DNA from: Candidatus Deianiraea vastatrix
Lineage (GTDB): Bacteria; Pseudomonadota; Alphaproteobacteria; Rickettsiales; Deianiraeaceae
Assembly: GCF_007993655.1 (NCBI RefSeq)
Contig: NZ_CP029077.1
Location: 614,744-678,743 of the forward strand
DNA: 64,000 nt
Direction: 5' to 3'
Shown: piece by piece, positions 8,572 to 50,821 of the stretch
Layout of the letters: each line of letters starts with the position of its first letter
Position numbering within the stretch: the first letter of the stretch is position 1
Program-made: the position numbers and the translations under genes
The notes under the pieces: generated by a model
What the model was told of the DNA's origin: nothing
What the model saw: only the letters and a program-made list of their open reading frames with translations
Database searches by the model: none

Positions 8572-9327
8572 TTAATCAATATCAATTTTATACTTTCTAA
8601 TTAAATCCCAATAAAATCCATTATCAAAAAGTATTAGCTGCCTCAAAGTTAATTTTTTAAAAATTAAATAGCGCTCTTCTTTTTCCAAAAGATTGTAACC
8701 ACCATGCTTACTATTTGTCTCTATAAACATATAATAATAACCTTTTTGCTTAATAACCCAAAAAACAACACTATCTTTTGAGTCAAAATTTTCATCATTA
8801 ATATCAATAATATTATTCCATTTTGCCAAATTTGCAATATACGTATTATAATTTACACAATCATTTTTATTACTATATATCATATAATAATTAAAATTTG
8901 CACTTTGAAGCAATTTATTCATTACATCATATTCGTATAAATAAGCCTCATATCTTCTTTCTTGATCGCATGGAATATACTCCTTTGTATTAAACATTAA
9001 GTCGTTTTTATCACTTCCATTCATTCTCATCGGAGTATTAGGGCATCTCTTTAGCGATACGGCAAAAATCTTTACATCTTTATTATTTGCAAAATTCATC
9101 ATCAAGTCTTGACTATCTAGGTATATTTGCTGTGCATCAAACGGACATTCTTTGTCTTTTGGTATCCTATAATGCCCACTTTCCATAACATTTCTTAATA
9201 ATGGCTTTGCTAATTTGTGTATCTTTCTATCAAAAAACCAATTAGTACGATATAAATATAAAAAAACTATTGAAACAAAAATTAGTAAAAATACTAAAAA
9301 TTTCTTTAATGTAATCTTAATTAGCAT
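8572..9327 (-). CDS. Unknown single-pass membrane protein, copy 1 of a duplicated pair
   Basis: 251 residues, family unknown. A single N-terminal membrane helix (about residues 9-26) is followed by YRTNWFFDRKI and a soluble, probably periplasmic, domain with scattered Cys residues and many Tyr/Asn. The first 60 residues are nearly the same as the C-terminal section of the next gene upstream (9335-10477, from its Met129), while the rest keeps only the general pattern: a Cys-Pro-x-Thr segment, a FWVIK/FWIVK strand, an ETN motif, and a shared tail of the form LTLxxLxxxDNGxYWxLIxxY. The pair arose by tandem duplication followed by rapid divergence outside the anchor. Seven bases separate the two genes, so they are probably co-transcribed. 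Confidence 0.6.
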   Translation of the reverse strand: MLIKITLKKFLVFLLIFVSIVFLYLYRTNWFFDRKIHKLAKPLLRNVMESGHYRIPKDKECPFDAQQIYLDSQDLMMNFANNKDVKIFAVSLKRCPNTPMRMNGSDKNDLMFNTKEYIPCDQERRYEAYLYEYDVMNKLLQSANFNYYMIYSNKNDCVNYNTYIANLAKWNNIIDINDENFDSKDSVVFWVIKQKGYYYMFIETNSKHGGYNLLEKEERYLIFKKLTLRQLILFDNGFYWDLIRKYKIDID

Positions 9328-9334
9328 AGTTTAA

Positions 9335-10477
9335 TTAATCAATATTAATATTATACTCTTTAATTAATTTCCAATAGCTGCCGTTGTCGTAGTGCTTTAG
9401 GTCATTAAGTGTTAGTTTTTGAAAAATTATATATGAATCTTTCGCAACATTTGCACCATGAGCTTGCATTCCATTTGTCTCAGAAACAAGATAATAGTAA
9501 TTTCCATTTTTGACTATCCAAAAACTACCTCGTGCAATCTTTTCATCTGAATGATTGATGTTAAATATCTGATTTGGATATTTTTTAATATTGTCATTTA
9601 ATATATTATGATTTAAACATTTAGAATTGTGATACAATGTATAAAACTTAAATTCACTATCATTTTTCAATAAATCTTGAATAAAATGGTAAGATTTATT
9701 ATACTCTAAATAATACCTATCTATATCGCAATTAAGATTTTTTTGATGAAAAAATAAAGGCTTATCAATAGCATCATCTCCAGTCATTCTTAATTGCGTC
9801 GATGGACATTCACTATGCCCAACCCTTGTAATCTTCAATAAATGCTTTTCCTTTATAAGAGTTAATAAAACATCAATAAGATCGCTACTAATTATTACCG
9901 TTTGCGGCTGACAACGATGAATTTCCGGTATCCTATAATGCCCACTTTCCATAACACTTCTTAATAATGGCTTGGCTAACTTGTATATTTTCCTATCAAA
10001 AAACCAATTCGTCCTATATAAATATACCCAAATCGCCGTAATACACACTAGTAAAAATACTAAAAATCCCTTTAGCGTAATTCTAATTAACATAATTTTT
10101 AACTTCAAATTTACTAAACTAAGATTATACTTTATTTTATTTTGCAAGTTTTTTCTGAAAATTGAAAAACTACTAACACGCTTAATACCCAATTTACCCG
10201 CATACAACCTATCTAAATCAAGTAATACCCTTTTTACCTCCTTGTAATATACCCTGCCCTTCTCGTTTAAAACAAGCTTGTTTTTCACCCTATCGAACAA
10301 TAAAAACCCTAAATCAGTCTCCAAAGATGATATCTGTTTTGATATAGTTGTCGCAGAAATACAATTCCTGGTTGCCGCATCGTTCACAGAATTGCCACAT
10401 TCTACAGTTGCGCAAAATCCCTTTAATGAATTTTCAACCTGCATACTAAATATAAAATCTATAGCATTGAAGGACAA
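9335..10477 (-). CDS. LysR-type HTH region joined in frame to membrane-anchored copy 2 of the pair
   Basis: 380-residue open frame with two unlike parts. Residues 15-100 form a LysR-type winged helix-turn-helix: SVNDAATRNCISATTISKQ is the HTH, then LETDLGFLLFDR and the wing VLNEKGRVYYKE. The usual effector-binding domain is missing. After a 30-residue linker, Met129 begins a protein almost identical at its N-terminus to the neighbouring 251-residue copy (membrane helix about 137-154, YRTNWFFDRKI, soluble domain). It could be a membrane-tethered regulator, or a broken lysR running by chance into a gene that really starts at ATG 10093. A TATAAT box at 10129-10124, just upstream of that ATG, favours the second view. 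Confidence 0.55.
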   Translation of the reverse strand: MSFNAIDFIFSMQVENSLKGFCATVECGNSVNDAATRNCISATTISKQISSLETDLGFLLFDRVKNKLVLNEKGRVYYKEVKRVLLDLDRLYAGKLGIKRVSSFSIFRKNLQNKIKYNLSLVNLKLKIMLIRITLKGFLVFLLVCITAIWVYLYRTNWFFDRKIYKLAKPLLRSVMESGHYRIPEIHRCQPQTVIISSDLIDVLLTLIKEKHLLKITRVGHSECPSTQLRMTGDDAIDKPLFFHQKNLNCDIDRYYLEYNKSYHFIQDLLKNDSEFKFYTLYHNSKCLNHNILNDNIKKYPNQIFNINHSDEKIARGSFWIVKNGNYYYLVSETNGMQAHGANVAKDSYIIFQKLTLNDLKHYDNGSYWKLIKEYNINID

Positions 10478-30110: not shown

Positions 30111-30803
30111 ATGAAAGATATTTTTATTAAAAACAAGGGATTTTTTTTACAATTTTGCATAATTATAACTCTTATTTTAGTTGATCAAATAACAAAAAAA
30201 CTTGCTATTAACTTTTTTCACAATATATGCGACGCCAAAGGAGGTTTAAACTCTTGCTCTTGGCAGTTATTGTCATTTTTTAATTTAACCTTCGTATGTA
30301 ATTATGGTGTAAGTTTTGGCATGCTAAGTAATATATCATATGGAAACATTATACTCTCTATTATCGGAATTTTAATAACAATCTTTTTTATTAAATCCTT
30401 AATTCAGGCAAAGAAAATATCTGATAAAATAGTCATTATTTTAATAATAAGTGGTGCAATAGGAAATTTAATTGATAGAATTTTAAATTCATGTGTTACG
30501 GATTTTATACACTTGCATTACGGAATATATGAATTTCCAGTTTTCAATATCGCAGACTGTTTCGTTTCACTTGGCGCAATTATATGGATATTGAGAAGTT
30601 TTTTTGACTGGAAAGCTAAAAAAACAGCTTATATATTATTAATATTTCTTTCTTTTACGGGATGTAAATGTAAAACAATTGATGAAGTAAAAAAAGAAAG
30701 ATCTGAGACAATAGAAAAAATTAAAAGAAAAAGTGGCGAAAAATACATCATACCACCTGCATTAAATTCTGTTCCAGAAATCAATGAATGCATAAAAGAT
30801 TAA
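30111..30803 (+). CDS. lspA: Lipoprotein signal peptidase (LspA) fused to a lipoprotein-like tail
   Basis: Inner-membrane aspartyl protease that cuts prolipoprotein signal peptides. The LspA part (about residues 1-165) has four helices, LVDQITKKLA (Asp25), CNYGVSFGM, the catalytic Asp122 in IGNLIDRI and Asp149 in FNIADCF. Normal LspA ends there. This frame continues without a stop for about 65 residues: a basic pair, a hydrophobic helix (YILLIFLSF) and TGCK, which resembles a lipobox with Cys185, then a polar tail ending near ALNSVPEINECIKD. In alphaproteobacteria a small lipoprotein gene often follows lspA, so this looks like a fusion of protease and neighbour. There is no internal ATG, only a TTG, that could start a separate lipoprotein. 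Confidence 0.85.
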   Translation: MKDIFIKNKGFFLQFCIIITLILVDQITKKLAINFFHNICDAKGGLNSCSWQLLSFFNLTFVCNYGVSFGMLSNISYGNIILSIIGILITIFFIKSLIQAKKISDKIVIILIISGAIGNLIDRILNSCVTDFIHLHYGIYEFPVFNIADCFVSLGAIIWILRSFFDWKAKKTAYILLIFLSFTGCKCKTIDEVKKERSETIEKIKRKSGEKYIIPPALNSVPEINECIKD

Positions 30804-31137: not shown

Positions 31138-31253
31138 AGCTGATCACGACCTACTCTCCCGTGGCAAAAGACCTAGTACCATCGGCACTGACGCGTTTCA
31201 CATTGGAGTTCGGAAAGGGATCCCGTGGTTCCACGTCGTTATAGTGATCAGCT
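31138..31253 (-). rRNA. rrf: 5S ribosomal RNA
   Basis: Minus-strand RNA of about 116 bases. The conserved 5S centre is recognisable (CGAACTC in loop C, CGATGGTACT in the 3' half, GGGAGAGTAGG near the end). The two ends pair (AAGCTGATCAC with GTGATCAGCTT), and complementarity continues outward for about ten more base pairs with one mismatch, a long processing stem. It lies about 80 bases downstream of 23S. Exact ends are estimated from the terminal helix. Confidence 0.9.
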
Positions 31254-31259
31254 TGTTGA

Positions 31260-31285
31260 TGAATATTTTTTAACTGATGAAAATA
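31260..31285 (-). repeat. 3' arm of the 23S precursor processing stalk
   Basis: This 26-base block is the complement (25 of 26) of 34211-34236 in the 23S leader. In the precursor the two would form the long helix that RNase III normally cuts around 23S. Confidence 0.7.
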
Positions 31286-31335
31286 AAAATTATAACAATA
31301 TTTTAGAATTAATTCTACACAAAGAATCAATAATA

Positions 31336-34088
<2,753 letters not shown>

Positions 34089-36006: not shown

Positions 36007-39000
36007 TTACGAACCATTTTGAATTAGTGAATATTGTAAATCAAAAATCTCACATCCAAACAACGATATTTGCTCATTTTTCGTAATCGTTAAGTTAACA
36101 CCTTGATAATTATTATAAAACTTCACAACATCTCCATCTTCATTATAAATTTCAATATAAAAACTAGAATATTTCACATAATCTTGCCAAAAATCTATAT
36201 CTCTTATATTTCGTGCCTGCCAAGTTATCAAAATATCTCCATTTCCTTGCTTAAAAAAATCAGTATTTAAAGCAATTTTTGGAAAATTAGTTCTACTAAT
36301 ATTTATCCTAGTCGGCTTTGCATCGGTAATTTGTTGATTATTTGAAACCGCTAAAATGTCAATATCTTTGTATAAATAAGTCATTGGAACGGTAATTTTG
36401 CAAATATTTTCATCAATTAAAACAAAATTTAAACCAGATAAATTCTGCGAGATTTCTGTATCAAACATTCCACGATAAAATGTCGAAATTTCAACTATTT
36501 TATCAGATAAATACTGCACATTTGCAAAGCTAATAATTTCATTTCCAATAATTGCAATATTTTGCCCTCCAAGATTTCCTTCATCAATGCTAGTTAAAAT
36601 ATAGTCGTCGTTTAATACAATTTGTAATTTTGTTTGCCTGTCAATTAAATAAGCCTCTGGAATTTCCGTATTTTCAGGATTTTCAACAATTTTCCCAGTG
36701 CAAGATTGAGAAGTTTGCGTCTTTACAAAAGAATAATCACTTTGCGTCGAAAGTTTTTGATAAATATCGCATGATTTCCAATTTGCAAGCAAGCCATTAA
36801 TGCCGCAAAATAGAGTTATTTGAGAAAAATCTGTATTATCATCCGAGTAGGGTAAATTATACGCATAAACATCGGTATCTCCTGATATTTCAAGAGTGCG
36901 AGCTGTTTCGATTATGTCATTTTCAACTCTTTGAAGCGGCATTTCAAGATTTACACTTGTTGTCGTGAAATCTATGTAATTTTTACCCATGTTAAATGAT
37001 ATTTCTGTAATTTTTCGAAATGAATTATCAATTTCAATAACATCGCCAATATGTAAATTGCTATATTTCATAGGCAGGGAAATAATATAATCATCTTTTT
37101 GCGCTATAATATTTTGTAAAATCTTCCCAGCAATCATTTGTGCATTTGAAAAACTCATTGCAATTGGCACTTTTATCGTCATTTTTTGAGTATTATCATT
37201 TTGAACAATTGCCGTATTTATCTTAAAATCACTTGAGTCAATAAATAACATTTCAATTTTACTTGGAAGCAAAGCCTGGCTATTTATTGTTAAAAACTGG
37301 GCAATTTCTGTTTGATTTTTCGCTATTATATCAGATTTATCAACCAAAATTGGTAAAAGATTTGTATTTTTTGAAAATTTCAGCTTGCCATTTAAATGAA
37401 ATATGTTAAAATCATAGATTTCAGCGAACATTTTAAGTATGTTAAATGCAGTTGAACTTTGATTTAAAACAAAGCCATCAAAATATTCATCTAGGTTTTC
37501 AATTTCAAAATCCTTCTCATCCATGCCAATTTTTTCACAAAAATCCGATATAATATTTGTGATTTGATTAAAGGAAATCTTGCCATTTAGCCAATGCCCA
37601 TAACGCCAAGAGGCGTGATCTGACCAAAGATTGGAAAAGGCTGGAAAAAACGGATAAGGACGCGCATCGTATGCCCAAATAAATTTCTGCTCGATAAAAC
37701 TTTTACCACCCCAAAACTCTTCAAAGGCAAGAATCGCGGCGTTTTGCGCTTTAAAATCAACTATTCCTTGAGATAAATGCGGAAAACCGGAATCTTGACT
37801 ATCTGGGCTATAAAACACATTTGGCTCATTTGTGCAGCAATCAACGGATGGAAAGCCATATTCGCAAAACCAAATTTTCTTCATTTTTGGCTGCCATAAA
37901 GTTTTTTTTCCATCAGGATTTGTGTGAAAATTGTTCCAAAAATACTCAAGATTTTTCCATGCATACTGGGGTGAAAGTGGCTTTGGATTTAACTTATTTT
38001 CGCTATCTTCATAATAAAAATCATAACCCTCGCCGCTTTCATATCCATGTTTTAAAGCGGAAATATCATACACAGATTGACCGCTGTTTGTGCAAGGAAA
38101 ATAACAGTCAATACCAATTGCGTCAATTGCGCTATTTGCCCATAATTTATCCATGTTAAACCAGCCCGAGTCGCTATGATGATATTCGCTCCAGTCTGCT
38201 GCATATATAACCTTTACAGAACTTCCAAGAATAGATTTTACATCATTTGCCAAAAGACAAAGCTCGTCGACAGCTGGGAAATTGCCCTTTCCATCAGTAA
38301 TTTTTGTAATTCCAATTAATTCAGATCCAATTATAAAAGCATCGACTTTTCCCTTGACTAAATTTGCATAATGCATTATAAAATCACGATAACCGCGAGA
38401 TTTATGAAAAAAATTTGCGACATTTGAAATATTGCCTGTAATCTTCCCACGCCACGGCTTACCATCTGCATCGACCATTAAAAATGGGTAAAAACAAACC
38501 TTTACACCTTTGCTTTTAACATAGTCTATATAGCGTAAAATTGAGCCATCAGAAGGCGTTCCACCGTATCTCACACTTCCACTGGCATCCACGCCAACCA
38601 TTTGAGCGCTACTACGATTAAACCCGGCAACACCCCATTCATCAGGTGTTGTTTTTCCATTTTTATACTCAACTTTTGGCAATATTTCACATGACGCAAT
38701 ATCAAGACTTGATCCAAACCAAGAGCAAATTACGGATGCCCACTTTAAATTTGGGATCTCTTTTTGCATTTTTTCAAATGATGCAACTGCATCTGAATTT
38801 GATGTATTATTATTGTGATTAATGCTTGCACCTTTGGAATATCCAATAATCATGCCAAAATTGTTATACACAGCGTCCATTTTATATTGAATTTGCGTAT
38901 CGTATGCAAATTCGCCGCAGCCAGGTATTATGCAAACGCCAGAAATTACACTATTTGCTGTTTTTGACTCCTTGTTGCAAGTTACATCAAATGTAAAATT

Positions 39001-39567
39001 TGGCACACGGCCGTTATAGTCGTTTAAAGAAAAATTGTGAATTACAACATAACATAAATCACGAAAAGCTGGCGTATTTTCATCCCCTTCATAGCTTTGA
39101 ATGACAGAATTTGGCATTTGATCTTGCGTGCCTAAATACTGCATTAAATTAAGCTTTGTTTTATCAAGCAAAACCTCGTCTGCATATATGTTATCAATTG
39201 AATTTACAACACCTTTACAAATTGCAATAGCAAGAGAAATTGAGTAGTTCGTACTTGTTTGCCCACCTTGTGTATTCCCAAATTTATCTCTTTTGACAGC
39301 CGTTTGCGTTACCTCTTTTTTAATCCCAGATGTCCAAATAATATTTCCAGAAGTTCTGATTTTCCCGTATATCTCAGGAATTATACGCCCAAATGTTGAT
39401 GTTTGAAGCGTAACATCGCGAATTTCAAGGTTGTATTTATACTTTTCGCCATCACCATTTACAATCGAATCTACAATAGATGTAAGCTCTGGTGGAAAGC
39501 CAAATCCAAGACTGGTGCTAAGAGTTCCTGTAATTGACGCAACTGATGAATTTCCTGATATTGCCAT
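36007..39567 (-). CDS. Gene-transfer-agent tail/host-specificity protein with TIM-barrel domain
   Basis: 1186-residue protein matching the large baseplate protein (gp15, the TIM-barrel tail protein) of alphaproteobacterial gene transfer agents. After an N-terminal phage-tail-like domain (about 40-200) comes the glycosidase-like TIM barrel with FIIGSELIGITKI, VIYAADWSEYHH, AIDAIGIDCYFP and IWFCEYGFPSVD, followed by a phage-tail_3-type region (about 680-900) and C-terminal beta domains. The frame is intact. No other gene-transfer-agent gene is nearby; in Rickettsiales such genes are often dispersed. Whether it still makes particles cannot be judged from one gene. Confidence 0.88.
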   Translation of the reverse strand: MAISGNSSVASITGTLSTSLGFGFPPELTSIVDSIVNGDGEKYKYNLEIRDVTLQTSTFGRIIPEIYGKIRTSGNIIWTSGIKKEVTQTAVKRDKFGNTQGGQTSTNYSISLAIAICKGVVNSIDNIYADEVLLDKTKLNLMQYLGTQDQMPNSVIQSYEGDENTPAFRDLCYVVIHNFSLNDYNGRVPNFTFDVTCNKESKTANSVISGVCIIPGCGEFAYDTQIQYKMDAVYNNFGMIIGYSKGASINHNNNTSNSDAVASFEKMQKEIPNLKWASVICSWFGSSLDIASCEILPKVEYKNGKTTPDEWGVAGFNRSSAQMVGVDASGSVRYGGTPSDGSILRYIDYVKSKGVKVCFYPFLMVDADGKPWRGKITGNISNVANFFHKSRGYRDFIMHYANLVKGKVDAFIIGSELIGITKITDGKGNFPAVDELCLLANDVKSILGSSVKVIYAADWSEYHHSDSGWFNMDKLWANSAIDAIGIDCYFPCTNSGQSVYDISALKHGYESGEGYDFYYEDSENKLNPKPLSPQYAWKNLEYFWNNFHTNPDGKKTLWQPKMKKIWFCEYGFPSVDCCTNEPNVFYSPDSQDSGFPHLSQGIVDFKAQNAAILAFEEFWGGKSFIEQKFIWAYDARPYPFFPAFSNLWSDHASWRYGHWLNGKISFNQITNIISDFCEKIGMDEKDFEIENLDEYFDGFVLNQSSTAFNILKMFAEIYDFNIFHLNGKLKFSKNTNLLPILVDKSDIIAKNQTEIAQFLTINSQALLPSKIEMLFIDSSDFKINTAIVQNDNTQKMTIKVPIAMSFSNAQMIAGKILQNIIAQKDDYIISLPMKYSNLHIGDVIEIDNSFRKITEISFNMGKNYIDFTTTSVNLEMPLQRVENDIIETARTLEISGDTDVYAYNLPYSDDNTDFSQITLFCGINGLLANWKSCDIYQKLSTQSDYSFVKTQTSQSCTGKIVENPENTEIPEAYLIDRQTKLQIVLNDDYILTSIDEGNLGGQNIAIIGNEIISFANVQYLSDKIVEISTFYRGMFDTEISQNLSGLNFVLIDENICKITVPMTYLYKDIDILAVSNNQQITDAKPTRINISRTNFPKIALNTDFFKQGNGDILITWQARNIRDIDFWQDYVKYSSFYIEIYNEDGDVVKFYNNYQGVNLTITKNEQISLFGCEIFDLQYSLIQNGS

Positions 39568-45455: not shown

Positions 45456-46118
45456 TTAAAATTTATTTAATACAAAAACAGCTTCATCTATATGTAAATT
45501 TGGCATCATTGTTGACCCGCCAAATATATTTAAAATCTTTCCCTTTCTATTTAAATAAAAGCCATATTTCACAAAAATATGCTCTTTATCACACATTCGA
45601 AGAAAATCATTAATACTAAATGGACTATAAATATTAGAGTCAAATCTATTTTTTTCATCAATGTCTAAAAATTGATAACTACCTGTTAACATAAAATGAA
45701 ATCTCCTCTTCAGCGTTGCATAATTTTGAATAACGCACACAACATTTTCAGACAATTTAAATGCACTTAAAAGAAATTGAACAGGATTTATTGTATATTC
45801 AATACATGAGTCAATAACAACAAGATCGCATGTACTGCCTTGATATTTTAACAAGGTTTCGTTTATCTCTATTGTCATTTTATCAATTAATGAATCATTT
45901 TGTATTTTATGTCCAATTTGTAAATTTATAACCTTTTTATCCCTTTCTTTTGCTGCCTGAATTACACTTTCTCTTAAATTTACGCTAATAATATTTTTGC
46001 AATTCATTAAAGATGAATCATATGTTAAAATAATATCGTTATAAAAGGCCATTACAGAATCTGAAAGATGGTAACGCGATTTTAAGATTTTCTCCGATAT
46101 ATTATGTATTATTTTCAT
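45456..46118 (-). CDS. MetW-like methyltransferase-fold protein, divergent
   Basis: 220 residues. The middle and end resemble MetW, a SAM-methyltransferase-fold partner of MetX: DLVVIDSCIEYTINPVQFLL sits where MetW has its TLQ helix, and RRFHFMLTGSYQFLD, then NIYSPFSINDFLRMCDKEHIFV correspond to the MetW stretch ending in the DF..LC helix. The N-terminal glycine-rich SAM loop (DLGCG) is not present: the region reads NIISVNLRESV. It may be a decayed or redirected homologue. It starts by a four-base ATGA overlap with the glutamate dehydrogenase stop. A general class I methyltransferase relative is the safer reading. Confidence 0.5.
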   Translation of the reverse strand: MKIIHNISEKILKSRYHLSDSVMAFYNDIILTYDSSLMNCKNIISVNLRESVIQAAKERDKKVINLQIGHKIQNDSLIDKMTIEINETLLKYQGSTCDLVVIDSCIEYTINPVQFLLSAFKLSENVVCVIQNYATLKRRFHFMLTGSYQFLDIDEKNRFDSNIYSPFSINDFLRMCDKEHIFVKYGFYLNRKGKILNIFGGSTMMPNLHIDEAVFVLNKF

Positions 46119-48796
46119 AAATTAAGAGCGTTAATTTTATCCAAAATTGCCTCAAGTTGCAAGTTATCAGTTGACGCCTGGCTTGCAATTAAGTCGCAAA
46201 TTTCCTTATATTTTTCAACTTTTTCACCCGTTTTAATCGATTTTACAACAAATTGCATTAGTCTGGATGCTATAATCGAAGCGGTTTTAAGCTCAGTCGT
46301 TCCATTTGAAACCTCAGCAAATATCTTTGAAATTGCAGATTTATATCCAAGATTATCCGAGACTTTTTTAGCAATTTCGCACGTTTGTTGATAATTTTTC
46401 TCAAATGAGTCCATGCAAATTGAAATTATATCAGCAGACTTTAAGACCTTTAAACCAGCGGTATACTGTGAGTCAAAACAGCACGATTTTTTAACGTCAG
46501 AGCAACAGGAGCCCTTTAAAATCTTGAAGAATTGATCGATAATTTGCTTTAAATTATGGATATTTTCCTCTATTGTTTTGTCAAAATTCACATGAGAAGA
46601 AATTGCAATTGAGGCAAATAAAGCGGCGTCTTGAAGTTTTTTTATTGCGCGGGCTTGATTTGCAAATTCTATCACTCCGTCTTCTTTGCAAAGCATTTCA
46701 AAAAGTGCCTTTATACCAAATATTTCCTGAGTTATGGAGTATAATTTTACAGCGTCCCCAACTTTTAAATCAAGCATTTGGCGAAGCTTGTAGAAATAGG
46801 AAATTCCACAAATATTGACAATTTCACCAGCAACTTCGGTTGCAATTATGTTTTTTGCAAGGCTGTGATTAAAAATGCCGTGTAAATACATATCTTCCTG
46901 CATTTGTCTTGGGAAATATTCAAGTAGGTGATTTGTTTTAAAGTAGTTATCACGCAAAAGATCGGATTCTAAAATGATATTTTTAAGATATATCTTCGCA
47001 TTACTGAGCATTACGCAAATTTGCGTTCTTGAAATGGCTTTTTTTGCGATAGCAAGTGATAAAAACTCCTCTTCACTTGGCATTTGGTGCATTTTTCTGT
47101 CTAAAACCTTCGCAATTTCCATTTGCGATGCAATTTTTGCAAAAATAGCTGTCTCATTTTGCGCAAAAGTTTCGGTGACACCTATTAATTTTGATTGCAA
47201 GTAGTTATTTTTAAGAACAAGAGCTGCAACATTACCAGTCATGTCAAATAGCAGTTTTTCTCTGCCTTTATCAGAGATTTTCACGACAGAAAGTGCGATT
47301 TTAATGTTTACTTCACGATCTGAGCATGTAACGCCTGCGGAATTGTCAATTGCGTCCATATTGACTTTAACCCCAGATTTCACAAGTTCCATGCGTCCAA
47401 GCTGAGTTATTCCAACATTTCCGCCTTCTGCTATAACTTTGAATCTTGCTTCATTTCCGTTTATTCTAATTGTATCGTTAAATTTATCTTTTACATCCTC
47501 ATTTTTTTCACATTCCGCCTTTATAAAAGTTCCTATGCCACCGTTGAATAATAGGTCAATTTTAGCCCTTAAAATATACCCAATTAACGCTTCTGGATTG
47601 AGTTTTTTGACACTTTTTGGAATATCAAAAGATGCTCTAATTTGTTCATTTATCTCAATATCACTGCCAAATCTGTCAAAAACACCGCCACCTTGACTTA
47701 TAATTGACTTATCAAAATCACTCCATTTTAACTGCGGATTTTCAAATAATCTCCTTCTTTCAAGGGCTGTTTTTTCAATGTCTGGATTTGGGTCTATAAA
47801 AATGTGCATGTGATTAAAAGCCGCCATCAGTTTTAGCTTTTTAAAGAGCAACATCCCGTTTCCAAATACATCACCCGACATATCGCCTATTCCAACTGCA
47901 GATATTTCAGTATTTTCCGCGTCAATTCCAAGCTCATAAAAGCTAGATTTTGCGCAAATATAAGCTCCGCGAGATGTAATTCCCATTTTTTTATGGTCAT
48001 ATCCAAGGCTGCCGCCCGATGCAAAAGCGTCTCCTAGCCAGAAATTATAGCGTTTTGAAATCGAATTTGCAAGATCGGAAAAAGTTGCTGTTCCCTTGTC
48101 CGCCGCCGCGACTATATATGTATCATTTTCGTCGTATATAACTGTGTTTTTTGGGTTAATAACCCTATCTGCCTCGATGTTGTCAGTAATGTCAAGCAGT
48201 CCACAGACGAATTTTTCATAGCAAGCCTTAACAAAAGCCATGTTTTCAGCCTTGTCTTGCTTTGGTTTTTTGATATAAAAACAAGCCTTTGCGCCAGATG
48301 GAACTATTATTGCGTTTTTACTAATTTGCGCTTTAACAAGCCCTAAAACCTCAGTTCTGTAATCAGCTCTGTCTGACCAGCGAAAACCTCCTCTTGATAT
48401 AGGCTGAGAGCGAAGATGACAGCCTTCAAAATCTTCATTATAAACCATAATTTCCGCATAAGGAATTGGTTTTGGCATGTTTTCTATAAACTCAGGCTTT
48501 AGTTTTATGGCAATATAGTCTTTTTCATCTTGATATAAATTTGTTCTCACAGCTGCATTTAAAATCTGCAAAAAATGCAATAAAATTGGCTCTTTTGTCT
48601 TGGATTTCAGTTTTTCAAGCTCAACTTCCCATTCTTTATTTTTTGTCTTGAATTTTAGCTTAAAAATACTTACAACACTATCTTCAAATCCGCTATTTTT
48701 CCTTATTAAATCAAGTAAATCGCTTTCATTTATGTCTCTATTAATCTGTTTATAATACGCCAAAACGGCGGGGAAAATGTGGTTTTCTTGCGTCAT
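46115..48796 (-). CDS. NAD-specific glutamate dehydrogenase, short form
   Basis: Catalyses oxidative deamination of glutamate to 2-oxoglutarate. The catalytic half of the large NAD-GDH class is clear: HLRSQPISRGGFRWSDRADY, VLGLVKAQISKNAIIVPSGAK (seen as GLVKAQ and VPSGAKACF), SGDVFGNGMLLF, GGNVGITQLGR and NMDAIDNSAGVTCSDREVN. Large-class enzymes are about 1600 residues; this one has 893, lacking most of the N-terminal regulatory part. The ATG at 48796 is chosen because the earlier TTG is part of the -35 box. The gene upstream reads away, so the missing half is not nearby. Followed by the MetW-like gene with ATGA overlap. Confidence 0.88.
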   Translation of the reverse strand: MTQENHIFPAVLAYYKQINRDINESDLLDLIRKNSGFEDSVVSIFKLKFKTKNKEWEVELEKLKSKTKEPILLHFLQILNAAVRTNLYQDEKDYIAIKLKPEFIENMPKPIPYAEIMVYNEDFEGCHLRSQPISRGGFRWSDRADYRTEVLGLVKAQISKNAIIVPSGAKACFYIKKPKQDKAENMAFVKACYEKFVCGLLDITDNIEADRVINPKNTVIYDENDTYIVAAADKGTATFSDLANSISKRYNFWLGDAFASGGSLGYDHKKMGITSRGAYICAKSSFYELGIDAENTEISAVGIGDMSGDVFGNGMLLFKKLKLMAAFNHMHIFIDPNPDIEKTALERRRLFENPQLKWSDFDKSIISQGGGVFDRFGSDIEINEQIRASFDIPKSVKKLNPEALIGYILRAKIDLLFNGGIGTFIKAECEKNEDVKDKFNDTIRINGNEARFKVIAEGGNVGITQLGRMELVKSGVKVNMDAIDNSAGVTCSDREVNIKIALSVVKISDKGREKLLFDMTGNVAALVLKNNYLQSKLIGVTETFAQNETAIFAKIASQMEIAKVLDRKMHQMPSEEEFLSLAIAKKAISRTQICVMLSNAKIYLKNIILESDLLRDNYFKTNHLLEYFPRQMQEDMYLHGIFNHSLAKNIIATEVAGEIVNICGISYFYKLRQMLDLKVGDAVKLYSITQEIFGIKALFEMLCKEDGVIEFANQARAIKKLQDAALFASIAISSHVNFDKTIEENIHNLKQIIDQFFKILKGSCCSDVKKSCCFDSQYTAGLKVLKSADIISICMDSFEKNYQQTCEIAKKVSDNLGYKSAISKIFAEVSNGTTELKTASIIASRLMQFVVKSIKTGEKVEKYKEICDLIASQASTDNLQLEAILDKINALNL

Positions 48797-48816
48797 AACA
48801 AAATAAGTTCTAAACA

Positions 48817-48844
48817 ATAATAAACCAAACAAAATATTTGTCAA
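48817..48844 (-). promoter_or_regulatory. Predicted promoter of the glutamate dehydrogenase operon
   Basis: Minus-strand CTTGACA (TTGACA 48844-48839), 16-base spacer, TATTAT (48822-48817). It places the start point near 48810 and hence the start codon at ATG 48796. Confidence 0.55.
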
Positions 48845-49469: not shown

Positions 49470-50075
49470 TTAGAATTTAAACAATAGTTTTAAAATATTC
49501 GTTCTTGCATAAAACGCCCGCGAAACAGACCCATGCCCCTGCCCTTTTGTTCTTGGCTGGATATAAACACCCATCTTTCCTGTGAGTTTTTCAAAGCCTT
49601 GGTTTATTATTGTGTCTCTTACTGTTTGGTAGTCTTGCTTTATTATGCGAAGCATTTCCTTGTCATCAAGATTAAATTCAATTACATTGTGTAAAATCCT
49701 GCTTTTTTCTTCCTTGCTTTCAAAAATATTCGTACAAATAACCATTTTCCTAAGTTTTGCATAAAGATGACTTTCCTCAAATTCCGTCATTTTGACATTA
49801 AAAGGATCGATCATTGTAATTGCCATAGTTTCTTTTGGCACAATAATGCCATTTTTTAATCTTTTAAGTGGAACTGTTTTTAGTTCCCAAGAGCCAAAAT
49901 TTGGAGACTGAGATGAATTAATCGGAAGACCTAGATATCGCTCAATTACATGACCAAACCAACCCTTGTTAATTTTTCCATCTTTCCAGACAGTTACTTC
50001 ATATTTTTCCGCCATTTGTCTTATGTCGGTGCCTATTAACTGTTTTAATTTTTCAACTGCCTCAGATTTTATCAT
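49470..50075 (-). CDS. MutH/Sau3AI-type DNA endonuclease
   Basis: 201-residue protein with the MutH-family nuclease pattern: KGWFGHVIERYLG (Glu45), then SPNFGSWELKTVPL with Glu64 and Lys66 of the D-x(n)-E-x-K site. The position expected for the first catalytic Asp appears to read Asn59, which may lower activity or may reflect my alignment. Further family features are AITMIDPF and SHLYAKLRKMV. It overlaps the methyltransferase gene by four bases, as in a type II restriction-modification pair, so a restriction enzyme is favoured over a mismatch-repair MutH. Relatives often cut at GATC; specificity here is a guess. Confidence 0.8.
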   Translation of the reverse strand: MIKSEAVEKLKQLIGTDIRQMAEKYEVTVWKDGKINKGWFGHVIERYLGLPINSSQSPNFGSWELKTVPLKRLKNGIIVPKETMAITMIDPFNVKMTEFEESHLYAKLRKMVICTNIFESKEEKSRILHNVIEFNLDDKEMLRIIKQDYQTVRDTIINQGFEKLTGKMGVYIQPRTKGQGHGSVSRAFYARTNILKLLFKF

Positions 50076-50821
50076 ATCAACTTATCCAAATCACAATCAA
50101 AAATTCTCCTTTTCGCAAGCTCTATATAGCCTTCATCCATCTCAATGCCGATAAATTGCCTTTTGTGTTTTATAGCTGCAACGCCAGTTGTTCCACTGCC
50201 CATAAATGGATCTAAAATAACATCACCTTCTTTACTTGATGCAAGAATTATTCTTTCCAAAAGCTCTAGTGGTTTTTGTGTTGGATGTTTTCCGTGTGTT
50301 TTTTCGCTATTTTTTGGCGGTAAAATCGACCAAACTGTTTTCATTTGCTTGCCACCATTAATTTTTCGCATTTCGTCGTAATTAAAATAATGTTTAGACT
50401 TTTCATTTTTTGCCGCCCATATTATAGTTTCTGTTGAGTGTGTGAAATATCTGCAACTTAAATTTGGTGGTGGATTTGGCTTTTCCCACGATATATCATT
50501 TAAAATCTTAAAACCAAGCTCTTGCATTGCAAAACCAATTGAAAATATTACATGATGCGTTCCGCTTACCCAGAAAGTTCCGTCTTTTTTCAAAATCCTT
50601 TGACACTCTTTAAGCCATTTTTTGTTAAATTCATGATTTTCATTTACACCCATGGACTTATCCCATTTTCCTTTATTTACACTAACAGCTACACCACTTT
50701 GACAGGTAATTCCGCCATTTGACAAGAAATATGGTGGATCGGCAAAAATAACATCAACACTAAAATCTGGTATTTTTGTCATCTCTTCTATGCAATTTCC
50801 ATTTATAATATTACATTTCAT
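50072..50821 (-). CDS. Type II DNA methyltransferase (amino-methylating, beta class)
   Basis: 249 residues with motif order IV then I, the beta-class plan. Motif IV DPPYFLSNGG is at about residues 31-40; the target region lies in the middle (WEKPNPPPNLSCRYF and STETIIWAAKN); the SAM site is near the C-terminus in HPTQKPLELLERII and DPFMGSGTTGVAAIK, and IGIEMDEGYIELAKRR closes the fold. DPPY suggests methylation of adenine N6 (or cytosine N4). Together with the MutH-like nuclease it forms a compact restriction-modification unit; DpnA-type enzymes for GATC are the nearest in look. It starts inside the end of the rhuM remnant. Confidence 0.88.
   Translation of the reverse strand: MKCNIINGNCIEEMTKIPDFSVDVIFADPPYFLSNGGITCQSGVAVSVNKGKWDKSMGVNENHEFNKKWLKECQRILKKDGTFWVSGTHHVIFSIGFAMQELGFKILNDISWEKPNPPPNLSCRYFTHSTETIIWAAKNEKSKHYFNYDEMRKINGGKQMKTVWSILPPKNSEKTHGKHPTQKPLELLERIILASSKEGDVILDPFMGSGTTGVAAIKHKRQFIGIEMDEGYIELAKRRIFDCDLDKLI

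Follow-up and report, generated by a model that had tools for sequence, protein, structure and literature searches.

An lspA frame that appears merged with a small BamF-like lipoprotein gene in Candidatus Deianiraea vastatrix

In the structure of S. aureus LspA, the C-terminus of the protease extends into the cytoplasm (PMC6952399). In Caulobacter, bamF lies immediately downstream of lspA, and its product, known as the DUF3035 family, is an alphaproteobacterial outer-membrane lipoprotein of the BAM complex (PMC3359395). Judged from its sequence, the lspA gene studied here appears to have become one frame with its usual downstream neighbor, a small lipoprotein gene. Coordinates are collected in Table 1 and refer to the window, i.e., the whole stretch of 64,000 nucleotides that was analyzed, taken from a genome of 1,205,153 bases in one contig with 32.8% GC. 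The sequence-only reading of this locus had described a complete LspA followed by a lipoprotein-like tail in a single frame, and this description is borne out by profile matches, the lipobox, codon use, and homology to a lipoprotein of G004, the closest relative examined. Its remark that a small lipoprotein gene often follows lspA in alphaproteobacteria likewise agrees with the DUF3035-type neighbors seen in relatives and with the bamF position in Caulobacter (PMC3359395). Proteins of both kinds are known; the new element is that a protease is joined to its own substrate. Our main reading, to which we assign a probability of about 0.6, is that the fusion is real and that its product would be one chain, which receives its lipid from Lgt at Cys185 and is cleaved by LspA in cis or in trans. 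The fusion is known from one assembly, and the genomes used for comparison belong to other genera.

Table 1. Positions in the window of the fused frame, its parts, and the runs and start codon near the junction.
Feature	Positions	Strand	Basis or remark
lspA-lipoprotein fused frame, 230 aa	30111..30803	+	Open frame; single and uninterrupted, 230 codons, ATG 30111 to TAA 30801-30803
LspA (signal peptidase II) core, residues 1-170, with predicted catalytic Asp122 and Asp149	30111..30620	+	Profiles, alignment, model
Putative former n-/h-region of a lipoprotein signal peptide with lipobox (KAKK-TAYILLIFLSFTG), residues 168-184	30612..30662	+	
Predicted mature lipoprotein part, Cys185-Asp230, shortened BamF/DUF3035-like, with IPPxxxxVP motif	30663..30800	+	Homology, profile comparison
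In-frame TTG, the possible internal start (ATG/GTG/TTG) nearest to Cys185	30591..30593	+	Would give MRSFFDWKAKKTAYILLIFLSFTGC
T7 run near the junction	30599..30605	+	With T6, two overlapping genes would result
A7 run at the junction	30618..30624	+	A8 reading would give two overlapping genes, the second with a TTG start

The motifs and the fold indicate that the LspA part is intact, and protease activity on prolipoproteins is predicted for it. The fused protein passes the curated cut-offs of both LspA profiles: PF01252 (Peptidase_A8) covers residues 17-165 at E 4.5e-30 with 105 bits, where 25 are required, and TIGR00077 (lspA) covers residues 5-171 with 101 bits, where 74 are required. In an alignment of 17 sequences, comprising the fused protein and 16 related LspA, residues D122, D149, N119, R123, and N146 are invariant, and the Asp dyad is present in the GNxxDR and FNxAD motifs. 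An AlphaFold model built from this alignment matches the PDB structures 5dir, 6ryp, and 6ryo with E values of 1e-9 to 1e-7 and TM-scores by target length of 0.71-0.80; the structure search with this model gave no other convincing match beyond LspA structures. The protein thus agrees with the LspA family (PF01252; TIGR00077) in its full core, its fold, and every conserved motif, the Asp dyad among them, but it adds a 60-residue C-terminal lipoprotein precursor which is absent from all 16 other aligned sequences. This fused copy is the only LspA in the genome.

Past residue 171, the chain continues with TAYILLIFLSFTG, then Cys185 and 45 mostly polar residues, so that the tail has about 60 residues in total, arranged as KAKK, a short hydrophobic run, the lipobox FTG-C185, and the polar part. 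The PROSITE-type lipobox ILLIFLSFTG-C185 is the sole match of its type in the fused protein, albeit with Phe at position -3, where Leu is the preferred residue; it supplies the Cys for which lipidation is predicted. Over the 46 codons from Cys185, coding-like codon use is found in frame 0 only (+12 bits, a score reached by 0.1% of shuffles), the other two frames scoring +2 and -9 bits with 4 and 7 stops, respectively. The hydrophobic run reaches a 15-residue hydropathy peak of 1.71 against 2.2-3.2 in the four LspA helices and was undetected with a 19-residue window. By this measure, it is short, as in a signal peptide, and would be short for a stable membrane helix.

The origin of the tail can be read from the relatives. 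In G004, which belongs to the same family but to another genus, lspA (174 aa) and a gene for a 57-aa lipoprotein are separate and overlap by ATGA; overlapping genes of this kind in relatives are presumably translationally coupled. A family search with the G004 lipoprotein finds the fused tail (42% identity, E 1.3e-7), and the mature parts of the two reach a score of 88, a value attained by none of 5000 shuffles (mean 24.2, sd 4.8). The tail is therefore homologous to a separate lipoprotein and not a product of chance; chance read-through into it was rejected on this homology together with the coding-like codon use. The lipobox and the mature region, including IPP and VP..EC, are conserved between the tail and the G004 protein, and since the codon use is also coding-like, selection seems still to act. 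The homology to the G004 lipoprotein (L002:2022-2195) covers nearly the whole mature part, in the same length class and at the same position, but the G004 gene is separate, has its own ATG, and overlaps lspA by ATGA, whereas the fused tail has no counterpart of this ATG. Of 30 further lspA loci that were inspected, 13 have a lipoprotein gene directly behind lspA, five of them at exactly -4 bases. Several lspA loci of the same family (e.g., L006, L012, L014, L017, and L022) are without a lipoprotein gene behind lspA. From these comparisons, the fusion most likely arose by joining lspA to its shortened bamF-like neighbor, and the two-gene relatives show where it came from. The sequence-only reading had named relatives with two separate genes as a refutation of the fusion; two such genes do exist in G004, but we read them as its source.

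The same reading had proposed to compare the tail with DUF3035-type lipoproteins, and a link to DUF3035 exists in an indirect form. Direct membership was rejected: the Pfam profile PF11233 gives no match to the tail or to any other part of the host genome. Among the lipoproteins next to lspA, this profile (DUF3035) recognizes five longer ones and, weakly, the short one of G028. The short versions in the host's family stay below the cut-off, with the lipobox and an IPPxxxxVP-like motif kept, and no DUF3035 gene was detected by the Pfam profile anywhere in members of this family. The tail is nevertheless tied to DUF3035 by the G004 lipoprotein, by synteny, and by a moderate profile match (hhalign of the tail family against the DUF3035 neighbors: 73%, E 3.2e-5, 43 columns). 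As for synteny, the tail is fused straight to lspA and so takes the position of the DUF3035-type gene, which neighbors lspA in relatives. With BamF/DUF3035 (PF11233) it shares this gene position, the lipobox, and a PP-containing motif near the mature N-terminus, but its mature part is only 46 residues long, most of DUF3035 is missing from it, its score is too low for the Pfam threshold, and it is joined to LspA. On this evidence, the tail is probably a shortened, homologous BamF-like lipoprotein, and BamF seems to be shrinking and disappearing in the lineage of the host's family. The host genome has a BamD-like protein, and the destination of the tail would be the BAM complex at the outer membrane.

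It is quite improbable, in our estimate, that the tail is an uncleaved extra membrane segment or an inert extension, decaying after the loss of BamF function. Such decay would agree with the very short lipoprotein of 46 residues, with the several family members that have no recognizable lipoprotein behind lspA, and with the AlphaFold model, in which helix 4 extends into the tail as one continuous helix (residues 147-182) without a turn before it. However, the model's tail geometry is given little weight either way because no aligned homolog covered the tail. Against decay stand the lipobox and mature region kept with G004 (42%), the coding-like codon use, and the hydrophobic run, whose length is small for a membrane helix that is to be stable.

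The fusion has a serious rival in an indel error, since the frame would split into two overlapping genes if the junction were read with T6 or A8. With T6, LspA would have 176 aa and the lipoprotein would start at an ATG; with A8, LspA would have 185 aa and the lipoprotein would start at a TTG. Relatives do have two separate genes. The sequence-only reading had already pointed to a possible homopolymer error in a T run near 30600. The T7 run lies there, the A7 run is a second candidate, and an error in either is disfavored by the following check. Sixty stretches of the host genome (1.2 Mb) were compared with the proteins of G028, a genome of the same order. The conserved genes compared, 332 in number, span 317 kb and include 338 homopolymers of at least 7 bases; none showed a frameshift. 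Planted deletions gave this check a sensitivity of 42% with strict and 60% with relaxed settings; zero events at 60% sensitivity correspond to an error below about 1.5% per long run (calculated 95% bound). Moreover, the sequence match to S. aureus LspA reaches residue 171 in the observed frame, so that the junction codons before and after T7 look like LspA C-terminus. That the organism truly has two overlapping genes, and that sequencing or assembly introduced an indel into T7 or A7, is thus decidedly improbable, and at the level of the sequence the fusion is probably real in the DNA, a conclusion we hold with high confidence. An inverted repeat was looked for at the junction between lspA and the tail, and none was found.

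The genes might also be fused in sequence while the lipoprotein is made, additionally or mainly, from the internal in-frame TTG, full-length LspA being merely tailed. We consider this unlikely. The resulting MRSFFDWKAKKTAYILLIFLSFTGC, with 24 residues of signal peptide, is plausible for a lipoprotein and has a PROSITE-type lipobox, but no clear Shine-Dalgarno sequence stands at a usable spacing before this TTG, no ATG or GTG is nearby, and the ATG of the G004 gene is without counterpart.

For the preferred reading, a single real chain, the following course is proposed. The fused lspA and bamF-like gene would be expressed as a single polypeptide, in which the LspA core makes four membrane spans and ends in the cytoplasm at KAKK, where the signal peptide of the native lipoprotein would begin. 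Because the C-terminus of S. aureus LspA extends into the cytoplasm, KAKK would be on the side that fits the positive n-region of a signal peptide. The short hydrophobic run would then insert outward like a signal peptide and bring Cys185 to the periplasmic face, the side on which Lgt acts and which holds the active site of LspA. Lgt, of which the host genome has one full copy, would add diacylglyceryl to Cys185, and the G184-C185 bond would be cut by LspA, either by its own active site or by another copy of the same protein. The products would be a free 46-residue lipoprotein and a normal LspA with a hydrophobic stub of roughly 14 residues. An earlier suggestion that another LspA might do the cutting is ruled out within the host genome: with a single LspA present, any lipobox cleavage of the tail would fall to the same fused protein, in cis or between copies. 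Cleavage would restore free LspA and free lipoprotein, the ancestral outcome, which would explain why the fusion is tolerated. More tentatively, the protein may be a self-processing precursor in which LspA frees itself at its own lipobox after Lgt has acted. The release of lipoprotein would then match LspA molecules one to one, and the active site may be occupied by the tail for as long as lipidation and cleavage have not taken place.

A survey of the order comprised 263 genomes from at least 29 families, mostly small genomes, and among the matches listed no other lspA match passes the tail region without a stop. Unusually long open frames over DUF3035 occur in at least 14 alphaproteobacterial genomes; in none of the 14 listed is lspA in the same frame, the lspA-to-DUF3035 distances modulo 3 being 1 or 2. 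A separate search of genome contigs gave distant lspA only. A literature search, mainly of open-access papers, found no description of an LspA-lipoprotein fusion, and other such fusions may exist elsewhere.

Another in-frame fusion is possible within the window at 9335-10477 (-), where the first 95 or so residues of an ORF resemble a LysR-type DNA-binding region and the remainder is a paralog of the membrane protein at 8572-9327. At 46115-48844 (-), an ORF of 909 aa resembles NAD-glutamate dehydrogenase, an enzyme with a usual length of about 1600 aa, and its N-terminal half seems to be missing. A DNA methylase adjoins a restriction-endonuclease-like ORF with an ATGA overlap at 49470-50821 (-), likely a restriction-modification pair. 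The ORF at 36007-39567 (-), of 1186 aa, resembles a baseplate multidomain protein of phage tails or gene transfer agents and stands alone. The 23S and 5S rRNA genes at 31138-34088 (-) have no adjacent 16S gene, i.e., the rRNA operon is split, as is usual in Rickettsiales.

If real, the locus would be a naturally occurring fusion of an enzyme with its substrate, placed in the essential lipoprotein pathway, and a built-in test of whether LspA can cut in cis. It would also show how a merger of overlapping genes becomes possible if one fused partner is able to split the product again. It further suggests that BamF, a poorly understood family, is still present in a reduced genome as a remnant of 46 residues.
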